Source: Clostridia bacterium
GTDB taxonomy: Bacteria; Bacillota_A; Clostridia; Oscillospirales; CAG-272
Length of the DNA: 5,074 nt
Assembly (NCBI GenBank): GCA_017462145.1
Contig: JAFTRT010000095.1
Location: forward strand, 1 to 5,074
Reading direction: 5' to 3'
In this document: piece by piece, positions 987 through 5,062 of the stretch
Numbering within the stretch: the stretch's first letter is position 1
Layout of the letters: each line of letters starts with the position of its first letter
The notes under the pieces: model-generated
Seen by the model: only the letters and a program-made list of their open reading frames with translations
Databases searched by the model: none
What the model was told of the DNA's origin: nothing
Position numbers and translations under genes: made by a program

Positions 987-2630
987 TCCTACCGAGGAAC
1001 AGCCGCCGACGGCGACGAGCTGTTGCGAAACGGAATGACCGTCATTCCCAACGGTATCACCATTAAGAAGGTAGGTGCAGATGGCATCGTTTATACGGTA
1101 AAGGATGCTTCCGACCCCTACGTTGCCTTTGCCACCGATCTGAACACCGAGTATTACAACTCCCTGCTGGTCACGGTCAAGTGTCCCGAGTTCAAAAGCT
1201 GTTCGCTTTGGTTCACGTCGGGCGATCAAACTCCCTTCCAGTACATCAGCGGCAACAGCAGTCCCTTGGGGCCTCAGGGTGCCTCTGACGACGGCTTTGT
1301 AAAGCTGGTGGTCTATTTGGGTGACGGAACGGTCTTTGACGGCAACATTACCTCCATCCGTATCGATCTGGGCACGGTAGCCGGCCAAGAGATCACCATT
1401 CAATCGGTCAAGCCTTTCTACGTTGACGTAGACGGATTTGGCACCATCCCCGTGGAGGATGACGAAACCGACCCCGAAGAGCCCGGCGAGGGCAATCTGC
1501 CTCGGGGCGAGGCGGTGTCCTCCCTCATCGCAGGCGACGGCATGGAATGCTTCCGATATACCGACATCTCCGTTGCCGATTTTGAAGCAGCTTGTCTCTA
1601 CTTTACCTCCAGAGGCTACACCGAGTATTGCTACCGAGATACGGCCAACACCATGTCGGCAACCTATTTGAGAGGGGATACCTACAATACCCTCTTCTAT
1701 CGTAAAGGCTATAGCGATCTGATCCTCGGTCTTTCGGAGACGGGCGGTCTTGCCCTTCCTCCTCAAGATCAAGCCTACACCAAGGTATGCGAAACCACCT
1801 TTACCCAGCCCGGCCTGCTTTCCGCAGGCGGCATGTGCGAAATCTTCCGCTTGGCAGACGGTAGCTTTTTGATCTTTGACTCCGGCAACCCCATTGAGCA
1901 CACCGTGATTTGGAACACCCTGTGCCAGCTCAACGGATCGGATCAGAACATCCGCATCTGCGCTTGGGTGCTGACCCACTCTCACGGCGACCACTACGGC
2001 GGCTTCCGTGACTTTGCGGGCAAGTACGCCGACAAGGTACAGCTGGATTACGTGCTGTATTCCCCCATGGCCGCACAGGAATGGGCTATTGCAGACTCCT
2101 ACAACGTCTCTTGGAACACCATTGACTATTATTTCAACGGGCCATTGCAGTCCTTGATTGCCGAGGCCTATCCCAACACCACCTTGGCATCGGTTCACGC
2201 AGGTCAAACACTGACCTTTGCCGACGTGACCTTGGAAATCCTCTATTCCTTTGAGCACGTTTACATCAACGGCGTTCCCGTGAATACCAATGATACCTCG
2301 CTGATGGTGCGTGTTTACAATGAGGACGGCTCGGTTCTGATCACGGGCGACTGTGAAACCGAGGCATCGGTTTGGGTGGATGAAACCTACACGCAAGCCG
2401 AGTTGAAGAGCGACTATATGCAGGCCGCACACCATGGCATGATCACCACCAAAGAGCTGAAAATCATGAAGAAGGCCGCTCCCACCGTCTATTTCTTCCC
2501 CTGCAATGAGGCTACCTACATCAATCGATGCAACAGTGGCGGCTATCGGGAAGCCAACCAATACGCAGCAGAAAACGGCGAGATCATTCATTACGGTCAC
2601 GGAACCGTCACCCGTCCTTTGGCTCAATAA
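3..2630 (+). CDS. Tandem double metallo-beta-lactamase-fold hydrolase (ComEC/Rec2-like), 5'-truncated by window edge
   Basis: The reading frame is open to the left edge, so this is the C-terminal part (875 codons) of a larger protein. The ATG at 27 is not the start: the residues before it (C-x-R-x-T-x-x-T) align with those before the equivalent MSATYL in the second copy at 1629-1655. Two MBL units are seen. Each has an HSHGDH metal motif (351-368; 1977-1994), a strand-end Asp (723-725, MADC; 2349-2351, TGDC) and a late HHG motif (801-809; 2430-2438). This ligand set, without a clear counterpart of the middle histidine of classical beta-lactamases, is typical of ComEC/Rec2-like MBL domains. 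Between the units lie a beta-rich region (about 987-1440), an acidic Asp/Glu/Pro linker (about 1455-1500) and the leader of unit two. The protein stops straight after unit two, with no C-terminal anchor. Both units keep their metal ligands, so both may be active. Hydrolase activity is inferred from the family; the substrate is unknown. A signal peptide cannot be assessed. Confidence 0.93.
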   Translation, partial: CKRETEQTMSATYLKDDEYNTLFLRKGWDNLYVGRSETGGRALPPQNQSYTKVCDTTVTQPGLVSAGGMCEIFRLADGSFLIFDSGNPIESSIIWQTLCQLHGSENNIRICAWVMTHSHGDHYGGFKNFANTYADKVKLDYVLYSPLARQEWDIADSYDVSWNTIDYYFNGSLQSLIQEKFAGTVLASVHAGQVLTFADVSVEILYTPEFVYMEEVPVDTNNTSIVSRVVNSDGSMMVMADCGAEASQWIYKTYDEELKSDLLQATHHGMLTGDDLKVMRKIKPTTYFFPCSETKFNEYWGVTCQAKQYAISGGEIIHYGHGAVTRKLSYRGTAADGDELLRNGMTVIPNGITIKKVGADGIVYTVKDASDPYVAFATDLNTEYYNSLLVTVKCPEFKSCSLWFTSGDQTPFQYISGNSSPLGPQGASDDGFVKLVVYLGDGTVFDGNITSIRIDLGTVAGQEITIQSVKPFYVDVDGFGTIPVEDDETDPEEPGEGNLPRGEAVSSLIAGDGMECFRYTDISVADFEAACLYFTSRGYTEYCYRDTANTMSATYLRGDTYNTLFYRKGYSDLILGLSETGGLALPPQDQAYTKVCETTFTQPGLLSAGGMCEIFRLADGSFLIFDSGNPIEHTVIWNTLCQLNGSDQNIRICAWVLTHSHGDHYGGFRDFAGKYADKVQLDYVLYSPMAAQEWAIADSYNVSWNTIDYYFNGPLQSLIAEAYPNTTLASVHAGQTLTFADVTLEILYSFEHVYINGVPVNTNDTSLMVRVYNEDGSVLITGDCETEASVWVDETYTQAELKSDYMQAAHHGMITTKELKIMKKAAPTVYFFPCNEATYINRCNSGGYREANQYAAENGEIIHYGHGTVTRPLAQ
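207..268 (+). repeat. 62-bp exact direct repeat, copy 1
   Basis: These 62 bases are identical to 1833-1894, including all third codon positions. With one mismatch at 206 the match extends left to 195 (195-268 against 1821-1894). Elsewhere the two MBL units differ freely at synonymous sites, so this patch is much better conserved than the duplication as a whole. It encodes MCEIFRLADGSFLIFDSGNP. Confidence 0.95.
1629..2621 (+). repeat. MBL unit, copy 2 of the intragenic tandem duplication
   Basis: This is the second, complete unit. It starts at the C-Y-R-D-T segment and ends at IIHYGHGTVTRPL, three codons before the stop. Its Asp motif is the canonical TGD form, where copy 1 has M-A-D. The leader at about 1513-1628 (with DISVADFEAACLYFTSRGY) probably belongs to this unit as an N-terminal cap. 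The copies differ mostly at surface-like positions and in a loop before the last strand (about 2505-2550), which has different cysteines and glycines in each copy and could tune specificity. Confidence 0.9.
1833..1894 (+). repeat. 62-bp exact direct repeat, copy 2
   Basis: This is the partner of 207-268, 1626 bp downstream in the same gene and the same frame. Recombination between the two copies would remove 542 codons in frame and leave a single hybrid MBL unit. Confidence 0.95.
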
Positions 2631-2656
2631 AGGATACGGTTTGGGGAGGCGATTTT

Positions 2657-2688
2657 TTTGGAAACTTTCTTGAAAGAAAGTTTCCAAA
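2657..2688. repeat. Left arm hairpin of the palindromic element
   Basis: This is a near-perfect hairpin: ggaaactttctt (2660-2671) pairs with aagaaagtttcc (2674-2685), and three more T-A pairs extend it to 2657-2688. In practice the loop would be opened to 4-6 bases. It is flanked by T7 (2653-2659) and A7 (2706-2712). No T-tract follows it on either strand, so it is not a canonical intrinsic terminator by itself, though it could protect a 3' end or slow decay. Confidence 0.85.
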
Positions 2689-2754
2689 CCTTCAAAGAAC
2701 TGAACAAAAAAAGAATAGCGCCCTATGCCTTATATGGCAAAAGTCGCTACGCTC

Positions 2755-2813
2755 TTTCTAAGGAAGAAACCCGTCGGTACCGCAAGGTGTCCGACGGGTT
2801 TCTCCTTTAGAAA
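2755..2813 (+). terminator. Central long hairpin, probable (possibly bidirectional) transcription terminator
   Basis: The stem pairs 2755-2777 with 2791-2813, about 23 bp with one A-C mismatch and one G-U pair. Its GC-rich core is cccgtcgg/ccgacggg. Inside, acc (2779-2781) pairs with ggt (2786-2788) around a GCAA tetraloop of the GNRA class (2782-2785). The GC core is followed by the T-rich tail tttctccttt on the + strand and by tttcttcctt on the − strand, so it could stop transcription from either side. It lies about 125 bases after the MBL gene stop and would end that transcript. The tail is T-rich but interrupted by C, so efficiency is uncertain. Confidence 0.6.
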
Positions 2814-2885
2814 AAAAGCAAAGCGGTTTTGCGATTCAATGGATCGAAAGCATAAATATCTTTTTTTGTGCAGTTCTTTGGGAGC

Positions 2886-2917
2886 TTGAGGGCCTTTCTT
2901 TCAAGAAAGGCCCTCAA
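2886..2917. repeat. Right arm hairpin of the palindromic element
   Basis: gagggcctttctt (2888-2900) pairs perfectly with aagaaaggccctc (2903-2915), and two T-A pairs extend the stem to 2886-2917. Its tip ctttctttcaagaaag is the exact reverse complement of the left arm tip. The outer stem is GAGGGC/GCCCTC instead of GGAAA/TTTCC. An A7 run follows (2916-2922) and a T7 run precedes it (2861-2867), mirroring the left arm. Confidence 0.85.
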
Positions 2918-2988
2918 AAAAATAGGCCTCCAAAAAAAATCCCCACCCACGCACCACTCAGAGTGCAAAAAATGCCTTTTTTTACAAC

Positions 2989-3015
2989 TTTTCCCCACCC
3001 TCTTGACGGGGAAAA
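2989..3015. promoter_or_regulatory. 8-bp inverted repeat over the -35 box (possible operator)
   Basis: ttttcccc (2989-2996) and ggggaaaa (3008-3015) are perfect inverted repeats with an 11-base spacer. The right arm starts at the last base of the −35 hexamer, where a repressor would block RNA polymerase. Low-complexity arms make chance plausible, and no regulator is encoded in the window. Confidence 0.3.
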
Positions 3016-3031
3016 AGCCGTATGCTATACT
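3003..3031 (+). promoter_or_regulatory. Sigma-A-type promoter for the lipoprotein gene
   Basis: The −35 box TTGACG (3003-3008) is five of six to consensus. After a 17-base spacer the −10 box TATACT (3026-3031) is also five of six. A TG dinucleotide at 3023-3024, one base before the −10, makes it an extended −10 promoter. Transcription should start near 3038, giving a leader of about 40 bases before the ATG at 3077. It lies outside the palindromic element and gives the lipoprotein gene its own transcript. Confidence 0.8.
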
Positions 3032-3062
3032 GGCATCAACCATTCAAAAAAACGACAAAAAA

Positions 3063-3068
3063 AGGGGG
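3063..3068 (+). promoter_or_regulatory. Ribosome binding site that fixes the lipoprotein start
   Basis: AGGGGG sits eight bases before the ATG at 3077. It supports this start over the in-frame ATGs at 2963 and 2972, which lie upstream of the promoter and have no such site. Confidence 0.8.
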
Positions 3069-3076
3069 AAACCAAC

Positions 3077-5062
3077 ATGAAACAATCACTCGCCATCCTG
3101 CTTCTCTTTGCCACTCTGGTGTGGGGTCTTGCCGCCTGCGGACAGAACCCATCCGACGGCACTGCCGAAACCACCACAATCCCTTCCGAGGAAGAAACCA
3201 CAACCTCTCCCATCGGAACTCCGCCCCCGTCATCCGATGAATCCGAAGAAGGCGAAACCACCACTCCCACTACGCCCCCCGAAACACCGCCCGAGCAGGA
3301 AGAGCCCGACGTCTGCCCGGCTTACATCTGGTATCTCACCACCCTCACCGACTGCTACGTTCGCACTGAACCGAGGATCGCCCCCGAGACCATTTTGAAA
3401 AATCAAAACAACGTCAACGTGATCTTGCGAGAAGACACATCCTCCACCGTCCTTCTCCGAGAGAAGGACACCATCACAGGCGGAGGCTACGAATCGGAGG
3501 GCAAGCTCCGAAACGACTGGTACAAGATCGACTACAACGGAACGACCGCCTACGTCACCGCTGACAGCTTCCGCCGTTCCTTTTACTGCTGTAACGAGCT
3601 TTCCCTCTCTGCCGTTTTGCAAGGACAAGCCTATTATATGTGGGACGGTTCCTTCCATTTACTTGATGAGACCGAAAACACCTTTGCCGCAGTCGATATG
3701 AACGGGGACGGGCAAACGGAGGTCGTCTTGGAAAGCGGTGCCGAGAATATGCTGGTTCTCCGAACCCTTGACGGATTGATCCTCGGCTACCGCTTCCCCG
3801 TGTCCAATATGGTCCGTCTGTATGCCGACGGAACCTTTGATTTCACCGATACCGCCGCAGAAGGGCACACCTACGGCAGAGCCAAGCTCACCTTTTCCGG
3901 CACTACAGTGCAAACGACCTCCCTTTGGCATATCATCAACGACGGAACCGACCATGTAGAATATTACATTGGTACGCAACGGGTGGCCAAGGCCAATTTA
4001 GATGCCTACATCGCCACACTGGAGGACGAGGAGCTCAGCTTTTGCGGACGAACCAAAGAAAATGTAACCGCCCTCCTCTCCTGCCCCGGTAACAATCCGG
4101 CCGAAAAAACCCCGGCCGATTTCACAAGCTACGATTCCATTCTCGCCACCTACCGCCACATGGTGGAGCTGATCCCCCTCGGAGGGCCTTGGGCTTTTGA
4201 AAACGGTTCCTTTGCCTCCCTCTTTACCTTTTCCGACAAGGATGCGTACGAGACGTACTGCGCCTTGCTCCACGCTGTAGGCCAATATGATGCCGATCAT
4301 GGGGAATCGCAAAATGCCTTTGGCTATGCACAAAAGGATCTGAACGGAGACGGAGCACAGGAGCTGATCCTCCTGAGCGACCGCTATGAGATCCTTGGTA
4401 TTTTCACGTCAACACCAACGCCCACACTTGTTTTCTGCTACCGCAGTCGTGTCGAATGTTCGATCCGTGAGGACGGTACGCTGTTTGTCTGTGCTTGGGG
4501 AGCAAGCACTTACGACTATCGCCACTGCGCCATCCGCTCCGACGGCACCGCGGAGACGCTTCTCCACTACGGCACCTTTGCCGACATTGCCAATGAGGAC
4601 GAATCCTTGACCTACTATCAGATCGGAGACGACGGTCAACGGGTGACACTGACAGAAGAAGCGTGGAACACCCTCCACGCAAGCTTCCTTTGCCCTTGCG
4701 GCTGCCTGATGAACGAGCAGACCAAAAACCACGGCGGCCTTGTGTGGAAGCCCCTCTTCTCCGCCGCAGCTCCCACCGCTTTCCATTTGGAAATGTGGAT
4801 GAATCACAATCGGAGGGTCAATCTGTTAAGCCTCACCGACGGCACGCTTCGCTTCACTGTGAAGCCCGATCAGGATGCGATTCTCCTCTCACTCACCGCC
4901 TCCCTTGCCGAGGACGGAAGCTATGCCTTTGAGTCCGAGAACCTCCGAGGACGCTTGGTCTTTTGCGAACAGGGCTTTTGGCTGGTGGTGGAGGAATCCT
5001 CCCTGACCTCCATACCCCCTCGTTCGTACGGCTTTTTCATCCATCTTGCCGCATTGGGCTGA
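3077..5062 (+). CDS. Surface lipoprotein with SH3-like domain and two D-x-N-x-D-G (FG-GAP-like) modules
   Basis: The 661-residue product starts with a lipoprotein signal peptide: MKQ, a hydrophobic core and the lipobox L18-A19-A20-C21, so Cys21 should be lipidated and the protein held on the outer face of the membrane. Residues about 24-85 are a Thr/Ser/Pro/Glu-rich stalk with three E-T-T-T repeats, suited to crossing the cell wall. Residues about 88-168 resemble a bacterial SH3 domain (CYVRTEP near the start; W-Y-K-I and A-Y-V-T-A-D-S-F near the end), a fold often found in cell-wall-associated proteins. Two modules follow, each with an acidic loop: D207-M-N-G-D211-G-Q-T-E215 and D421-L-N-G-D425-G-A-Q-E429. 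These resemble calcium loops of FG-GAP/dockerin-type repeats. A C-P-C-G-C cluster (539-543) leads into a C-terminal domain (about 565-661) that I do not recognise. No catalytic motif is seen, so a binding, sensing or structural role is more likely than an enzyme. The start is set by the lipobox, promoter and ribosome binding site. Confidence 0.93.
   Translation: MKQSLAILLLFATLVWGLAACGQNPSDGTAETTTIPSEEETTTSPIGTPPPSSDESEEGETTTPTTPPETPPEQEEPDVCPAYIWYLTTLTDCYVRTEPRIAPETILKNQNNVNVILREDTSSTVLLREKDTITGGGYESEGKLRNDWYKIDYNGTTAYVTADSFRRSFYCCNELSLSAVLQGQAYYMWDGSFHLLDETENTFAAVDMNGDGQTEVVLESGAENMLVLRTLDGLILGYRFPVSNMVRLYADGTFDFTDTAAEGHTYGRAKLTFSGTTVQTTSLWHIINDGTDHVEYYIGTQRVAKANLDAYIATLEDEELSFCGRTKENVTALLSCPGNNPAEKTPADFTSYDSILATYRHMVELIPLGGPWAFENGSFASLFTFSDKDAYETYCALLHAVGQYDADHGESQNAFGYAQKDLNGDGAQELILLSDRYEILGIFTSTPTPTLVFCYRSRVECSIREDGTLFVCAWGASTYDYRHCAIRSDGTAETLLHYGTFADIANEDESLTYYQIGDDGQRVTLTEEAWNTLHASFLCPCGCLMNEQTKNHGGLVWKPLFSAAAPTAFHLEMWMNHNRRVNLLSLTDGTLRFTVKPDQDAILLSLTASLAEDGSYAFESENLRGRLVFCEQGFWLVVEESSLTSIPPRSYGFFIHLAALG

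Follow-up and report, generated by a model that had tools for sequence, protein, structure and literature searches.

The intergenic palindrome at positions 2645–2931 is read here, with a probability of about 0.7, as an inverted doublet of a dispersed hairpin/tail module whose sequence would allow an intrastrand triple helix. The window, i.e. the whole 5,074-nt stretch of DNA that was analysed, holds one such doublet; the comparative evidence comes entirely from relatives, and the multi-copy status and dispersal of the module are known from relatives only. In these relatives, the double-stranded base of the hairpin (the pedestal) changes in a compensatory manner, the hairpin core and the tail are coupled in mirror register, the linker lengthens with the pedestal, and neighbouring modules are paired with their tails inward.

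Anatomy of the palindrome

Folded as RNA, positions 2640–2940 reached −143 kcal/mol, compared with −74.85 kcal/mol (sd 5.34) for 100 dinucleotide shuffles (z −12.8), and folding of the same region as DNA gave a z of −13.1. The ~290-bp palindrome of ordered inverted blocks described in the initial annotation is present, and with a z of about −13 for both nucleic acids its structure exceeds that of shuffled sequence. The outermost closing arm, GGAGGC at 2645–2650, pairs with GCCTCC at 2926–2931 (inverted pair I4, no strand assigned), and inside it lie the inverted blocks 2653–2680 and 2894–2921, which are 82% complementary. The left hairpin (2657–2688, minus strand, pair I6) consists of perfect 15-bp arms at 2657–2671 and 2674–2688, in which an 8-bp pedestal, TTTGGAAA, carries the core CTTTCTT/AAGAAAG. 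The right hairpin (2886–2917, plus strand, pair I7) has perfect 15-bp arms at 2886–2900 and 2903–2917 and bears the same core on the 8-bp pedestal TTGAGGGC. The two end hairpins differ in their pedestals but have one core, which reads CTTTCTT-GA-AAGAAAG on the plus strand at the left and as the reverse complement of this at the right.

Each hairpin is accompanied by a tail that mirrors one of its arms, a feature absent from the initial annotation. The left tail, CAAAGAAC (2693–2700, minus strand), was assigned by its sequence and by the arm/tail rule described below; within it AAAGAA at 2694–2699 (minus-strand TTCTTT) mirrors, as third-strand code, the purine arm AAGAAAG (2674–2680). The right tail, TTCTTTG (2874–2880, plus strand; GTTCTTTG with one more flanking base, 2873–2880), mirrors in the same code the purine arm AAGAAAG of its own hairpin (2903–2909). 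Both tails, together with A7/T7 runs, fall within the inner inverted arms 2693–2714 and 2859–2880 (95% complementary, pair I2, no strand assigned). The T7 and A7 runs that had been described around each half are found, but the inner run is separated from its hairpin by the CAAAGAAC tail. The central stem (2755–2813, pair I3, no strand assigned) has arms 2755–2777 and 2791–2813 (91% complementary) and no following T-run; its GCAA loop agrees with the GNRA cap proposed for it, whereas its description as terminator-like fails, as no stem with a T-run behind it was found by scanning 2600–3100.

The repeated unit, termed TH, is a hairpin with a variable stem below CTTTCTT/AAGAAAG and a nearby tail, reading TTCTTTG on one strand and CAAAGAA on the other. 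Both tails lie on the central side of their own hairpin, and the palindrome is an inverted pair of this one module, with tails inward around the GNRA-capped central stem. Each end of the element in the window carries the hairpin-plus-tail module, which none of 2000 dinucleotide shuffles of the intergenic region 2631–3076 reproduced. At both ends the pyrimidine (Y), purine (R) and third-strand tracts TTCTTT/AAGAAA/TTTCTT stand in matching register, within the 6–15 nt of the PIT/ITxF definition. The core in the window offers six triplets, and the closing G of the tail opposes a C-G pair, which is not a canonical triplet.

Relatives and their distribution

A pattern composed of the core plus the tail retrieved five loci from the genome contig collection, four in Clostridia records (L002, L003, L004, L006) and one in an archaeal MAG (L005), which looks like a chance match and was dropped. 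The core alone was found in 12, 13, 3 and 9 copies in genomes G001–G004 and in one copy in a fifth genome, with no match in the backward control. In 28 of 31 distinct core-only copies a tail is present where expected, even though the tail was outside the search pattern; three with no tail on that side were set aside, two having it on the other side (L011, L030) and one, by eye, a variant tail (L012). The hairpin loop of L011 and L030 is flipped relative to the tail. Related copies, of the kind that the initial annotation had proposed to look for in Clostridia, are numerous in several genomes. Of 146 genomes from the family to which G002 belongs, 33 have the motif with its tail, and the form tested is present in 2 of 149 genomes sampled across the phylum; outside some gut Clostridia its distribution is patchy.

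Distant blastn with 2630–2945 gave no match in the phage collection and two short matches (E 0.3) in the plasmid collection. Neither the left hairpin nor the hairpin plus tail AAAGAACTG was found as an exact string in IMG/VR, and the T7-hairpin string was found there in one contig (L001), which was excluded from the family. Three further arrangements were observed among the loci. L058 (G097) consists of three tandem units of ~168 bp, each with a TH hairpin, and inverted T-type hairpins lie between the units. In L065 the TH hairpin immediately follows a stretch resembling the 3′ end of a tRNA gene. In L003, L019 and L170–L183 the TH hairpin often has a GGGGCTCYGCCCC-like hairpin next to it, on the side facing the gene.

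Coupling of the tail to the hairpin arm

The number of T residues in the tail TTC(T)nG equals that in the arm AAG(A)nG in 110 of the 114 hairpin sides having such a tail (4 with n=2, 84 with n=3, 20 with n=4 and 2 with n=5); 127 sides are without one, about half being expected since hairpins were read from both sides. The variable core pair is likewise matched by the tail base in 154 of 155 cases (C-G with G 114, T-A with A 40, C-G with A 1), a count that took in tail-bearing copies only; none of the 26 copies contributed by the core-only search departs from the rule. The order of bases in the tail TTC(T)nG is the reverse of that in the arm C(T)nCTT, so that the tail mirrors the pyrimidine arm and thereby spells the parallel Hoogsteen code for the purine arm. 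When asymmetric long tracts were searched in the same 103 genomes, mirror tails gave 203 matches (13 genomes) and direct-repeat tails 13 (9 genomes), of which at least 5 overlap a listed mirror-type copy on the opposite strand. A scan with no fixed tract classed 132 asymmetric sides as 55 mirror, 66 tie and 11 direct; the ratio was 28 to 2 for matches of at least 8 nt and 26 to 0 for those of at least 10 nt. Mirror matches of at least 7 nt were found on 39 sides, compared with a mean of 22.7 and a maximum of 30 in 200 permutations, copies within one genome not being independent. The mirror rule holds across many different tracts; some loci had been fetched by patterns that contained a tail, but the pattern did not fix the match of the tail to the arm. 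Some long-tract modules, in L108 and other direct-pattern matches, carry after the hairpin a second purine tail, AAAAGAAAAA, which is a direct repeat of the purine arm.

The same coupling is visible in IMG/VR, where at least 120 stretches were matched with n=3 and 20 with n=4, as against 4 with arm 4 and tail 3 and 10 with arm 3 and tail 4; in the same order, the distinct strings number at least 77, 19, 3 and 7. Restricting the distinct strings to those whose pedestal reaches 3 bp leaves at least 32 and 12 matched and 1 and 0 mismatched. The sample of 149 genomes across the phylum yielded 14 matched copies with n=3, 10 with n=4 and none for either mismatched combination, the backward controls giving two matches for one combination (arm and tail mismatched) and none for the others. 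In G281, copies with n=3 and n=4 coexist in one genome, and all are matched. L101 and L127, which have the same right module, differ by one triplet (arm T to C, partner A to G, tail T to C) and also in the pedestal, which could be a triple change or the exchange of a whole module. Pairing of the two tails with each other was considered as the cause of the rule and rejected because, by eye, the left and right tracts differ in the G003 family and each tail follows its own hairpin.

Ordinary template switching copies a sequence in direct or inverted form and does not generate mirror repeats, nor does a protein meet the same face or site in a sequence and in its mirror. An intrastrand triplex, on the other hand, requires exactly this mirror-repeat arrangement. 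Being unlike both template-switch products and repeated protein sites, the module is read as a hairpin with a putative fold-back third strand.

Pedestal and linker

Across 43 distinct sequences, 91.8% of the pedestal cells are paired, compared with 70.6% after shuffling. The covariation score is 0.518 against 0.131 for shuffled pedestals and was reached in none of 500 shuffles, while slid controls gave at most 0.188; two other measures in this analysis, which count pairs or pair types, did not rise above the shuffles. The linker lengthens with the pedestal (slope 0.79, Spearman 0.67, n=110), also when 62 distinct stems are considered (slope 0.69, rho 0.61), and its median length, closing G included, is 1.5, 2, 3, 3, 5, 6 and 7 nt for pedestals of 3 to 9 bp. 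The window, with pedestals of 8 bp, has linkers of 5 and 6 nt.

Doublets and the question of mobility

A permissive detector identified 236 modules, among whose neighbours within 600 bp there were 43 tails-inward pairs, no hairpins-inward pairs and 5 facing the same way, many of the 43 coming from loci fetched for carrying a long-tract module. With a stricter detector the respective counts were 23, 0 and 5 in hosts and 1, 1 and 1 in IMG/VR. In the long-tract family, 38 elements align over the left module, central stem and right module, and a recognisable left module is missing, by eye, in at least six (L078, L083, L095, L096, L100, L124). One family is built of a ~135-nt unit with the same three-hairpin layout as the window.

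This organisation recalls REPINs and BIMEs, in which two inverted palindromic hairpins surround a spacer and are dispersed between genes as mosaics; the inverted doublet of short palindromes is present here too, its dispersal being established through the relatives. It also recalls MITEs, with which the element shares terminal inverted repeats (present in the window), a lack of coding capacity and several copies in relatives. A selfish non-autonomous element of this kind, whose tail and hairpin would be the target of a transposase, REP-type (Y1/RAYT) or other, is the strongest of the alternatives, although we hold it only tentatively. In addition to the multi-copy inverted doublets, it is favoured by the near-constant inner spacing, 71–78 bp for most of the G003-family doublets listed, and by the sharing of interiors between copies, in 64 of 105 copy pairs in G007 and 105 of 190 in G131, as against exteriors in 14 of 105 and 29 of 190, where the similarity mostly adjoins the hairpin. 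However, interiors are weakly shared in G101 (13 of 171 pairs; exteriors 2 of 171), and in G103 exteriors are shared (10 of 10 pairs) as well as interiors (9 of 10). Six cross-locus flank comparisons were made: four pairs keep the element and two are without part of it, L123 having the right module only where L087 has the full doublet, which counts in favour of such an element, and L113 being without the right hairpin of L095. In this comparison, of the kind called for in the initial annotation, none is a clean empty site and no target duplication was seen.

A link to RAYT/Y1 transposases was also sought and rejected. Y1_Tnp (PF01797) is not associated with the motif in the family of G002 (13 of 33 bearing and 42 of 113 non-bearing genomes) or in a second genome set (3 of 13 and 38 of 90), in a cross-tabulation made by hand on genomes that are largely MAGs. 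The element differs further from REPINs and BIMEs in that its sequence rule is the mirror tail; the GTAG or CGTC tag of the REP definition, as given in PMC3733652, is not at its ends, where the tails read GTTC(T)nG and C(A)nGAAC. From MITEs it differs in having ends that vary compensatorily between copies and in the lack of a parent transposon among the sequences searched. The MITE- or BIME-like repeat suggested by the initial annotation therefore fits the multi-copy relatives, the interiors shared in some genomes, the inverted doublets and the ~135-nt unit, but not the transposase and target-duplication results. We infer spread and possible mobilisation of the copies from these comparisons.

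Relation to transcription

A second alternative, which appears doubtful, is an RNA element involved in the protection or processing of mRNA ends, in which the T-rich reading (tail, then hairpin) would form U.A-U and C.G-C major-groove triples, or the A-rich reading (hairpin, then tail) would dock the tail in the groove, a subset folding as H-type pseudoknots. In 19 of 47 distinct copies with loops of at least 5 nt, the loop can pair with the flank lying 5′ of the tail, beyond it, by a helix of at least 4 bp, compared with a mean of 6.6 and a maximum of 15 in 500 permutations; these copies are a predicted H-type pseudoknot subset. In the long-loop IMG/VR loci L264, L309, L322, L358 and L367, the loop pairs over 5–7 bp with the flank before the tail. 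The window lies outside this subtype, its loops (2–4 nt) being too short and showing no loop-flank pairing. Riboswitches provide known cases of H-type pseudoknots that contain a major-groove triple helix, as reported for SAM-V (PMC6061858) and guanidine-III (PMC5696562), and the long-loop subset shares with them the strand order and a third strand placed in the groove. In contrast to them, the window shows no pairing of loop and flank, a ligand pocket is not known, and the copies are dispersed and, as far as seen, not tied to one gene class.

Single modules in IMG/VR are oriented with respect to transcription (21 against 8, and 17 against 3 with shorter ORFs), whereas those in hosts are not (19 against 18), these counts being based on crude ORF calls that place 25 host and 8 IMG/VR singles inside an ORF of at least 120 codons. 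The neighbour within 120 nt on the hairpin side presents its 3′ end in 44 cases and its 5′ end in 32 (62 and 51 in an earlier, cruder count). The proposal that the element may be an RNA at the 3′ end of the upstream gene fits the orientation of the IMG/VR singles and draws no support from that of the host singles. Rfam searches of the window at E up to 1 returned three matches, all far below gathering scores, and hence no family; at 12 IMG/VR loci they returned tmRNA and tRNA only, away from the motif. The commoner mRNA reading is, moreover, the purine motif, and purine-motif triplexes are reported in PMC4666352 not to form in RNA. This report, together with the absence of host orientation, makes us lean to action at the DNA level, whereas the IMG/VR orientation bias and the pseudoknots lean to RNA.

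A bidirectional intrinsic terminator with chance repeats is improbable. The central stem does have an A-tract upstream and TTTCTCCTTT downstream, and it is situated between the stop of the first gene and the promoter-like site of the second; however, besides the negative scan of 2600–3100, at least four T in the 8 nt after the hairpin were found in 0 of 221 modules in the hairpin-to-tail reading and in 31 of 221 in the other, and an intrinsic terminator was rejected. Least probable is a protein-binding site repeated in hairpin and tail, since the core and tail, though conserved in a fixed relation, are mirrors rather than direct or inverted copies (203 against 13 matches, with equal T-counts on 110 of 114 sides), which would offer a protein a different face and led to the rejection of a direct repeat as the main rule.

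Proposed structure and comparison with known triplex motifs

In the triplex-capable doublet that we favour, each module would comprise a hairpin on a variable double-stranded pedestal, a polypyrimidine/polypurine core, a linker and a Hoogsteen-coded third-strand tail. Whenever the strand becomes single, through replication, transcription or cruciform extrusion, the hairpin could form, and the tail could then fold back along it to give a short intrastrand triple helix of about 6–12 triplets, six in the window. Two such modules, facing each other with tails inward around a central stem, would produce the three-hairpin palindrome. Judged from base sequence, triplex formation may also take place in the cell. 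Acting on DNA, the module might separate transcription units as a structural element or a boundary, or else form the ends of a non-autonomous repeat. Our leading guesses for its function are a structure that sets a boundary or causes pausing between such units, and the repeat-end role.

The element falls into two kinds already known, the intrastrand triplex repeat and the inverted doublet of repeats. The closest known system is that of the BoxC/PIT/TM-ECO intrastrand triplex motifs, as presented by Holder et al. (2015; PMC4666352). They share with the element ordered Y, R and third-strand segments, which here would place a purine motif (class II) on one strand and a pyrimidine motif (class IV) on its complement, as well as an intergenic, multi-copy occurrence, also in inverted orientation, and the absence of an assigned function. 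Unlike these motifs, as described there, the element has a Watson-Crick pedestal of 3–9 bp under the core, a linker growing with the pedestal, a short A/T-rich core, tails-inward doublets and demonstrated coupled changes of hairpin and tail. Owing to the pedestal and scaled linker, the 13–15 nt (closing G, linker, pedestal and core C) that separate the third strand from the Y arm in the window exceed the 1–6 nt set for both loops in the ITxF search (PMC4666352). The G/C-rich BoxC/TM-ECO consensus CCCTCNCCC...GGGNGAGGG...GGGNGAGGG is not found in the A/T-rich cores of the window. For this G/C-rich motif, PMC4666352 reports a triplex in vitro, in-cell footprinting that did not support it and no assigned function. 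A search of open-licence PMC papers found no description of the present motif, nor of its pedestal, scaled linker, hairpin/tail co-evolution or tails-inward doublets.

The existence and importance of triple helices in bacterial cells is an old open question, for which evidence from evolution was missing; the coupled changes of hairpin and third strand, seen with different tract types in many genomes and in IMG/VR contigs, are evidence of that kind. A broader claim, for which we see even odds, is that the modules form a widespread bacterial and phage-like intergenic class with the intramolecular triple helix as its conserved trait. Core and tail would then co-evolve as base triples, with the linker tuned to the pedestal, some copies being pseudoknots and the Clostridia copies forming tails-inward doublets that bracket intergenic stems. 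If true, this would constitute covariation evidence for the selection of a nucleic-acid triplex across bacteria. The rule itself (TTC(T)nG with AAG(A)nG, and a linker that scales with the pedestal) specifies exact testable mutants, and should the triplex prove irrelevant, it would still define a repeat family passed over by gene finders and RNA annotators.

Locus and neighbouring genes

The window contains two plus-strand genes, at 3–2630 and 3077–5059, and the element lies after the stop at 2630 and before a promoter-like site, TTGACG-17-TATACT, at 3003–3031. The identities of the neighbouring genes were examined and revealed no tie to the element. The first gene, open at its left end, encodes two tandem metallo-beta-lactamase-fold domains in a single protein; an 873-codon open frame on its opposite strand (66–2687) is probably a shadow frame. 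The product of the second gene is a lipoprotein-like protein of 661 aa with weak FG-GAP similarity, for which one other relative, P0002, was found at 32% identity among 7994 candidates scored.
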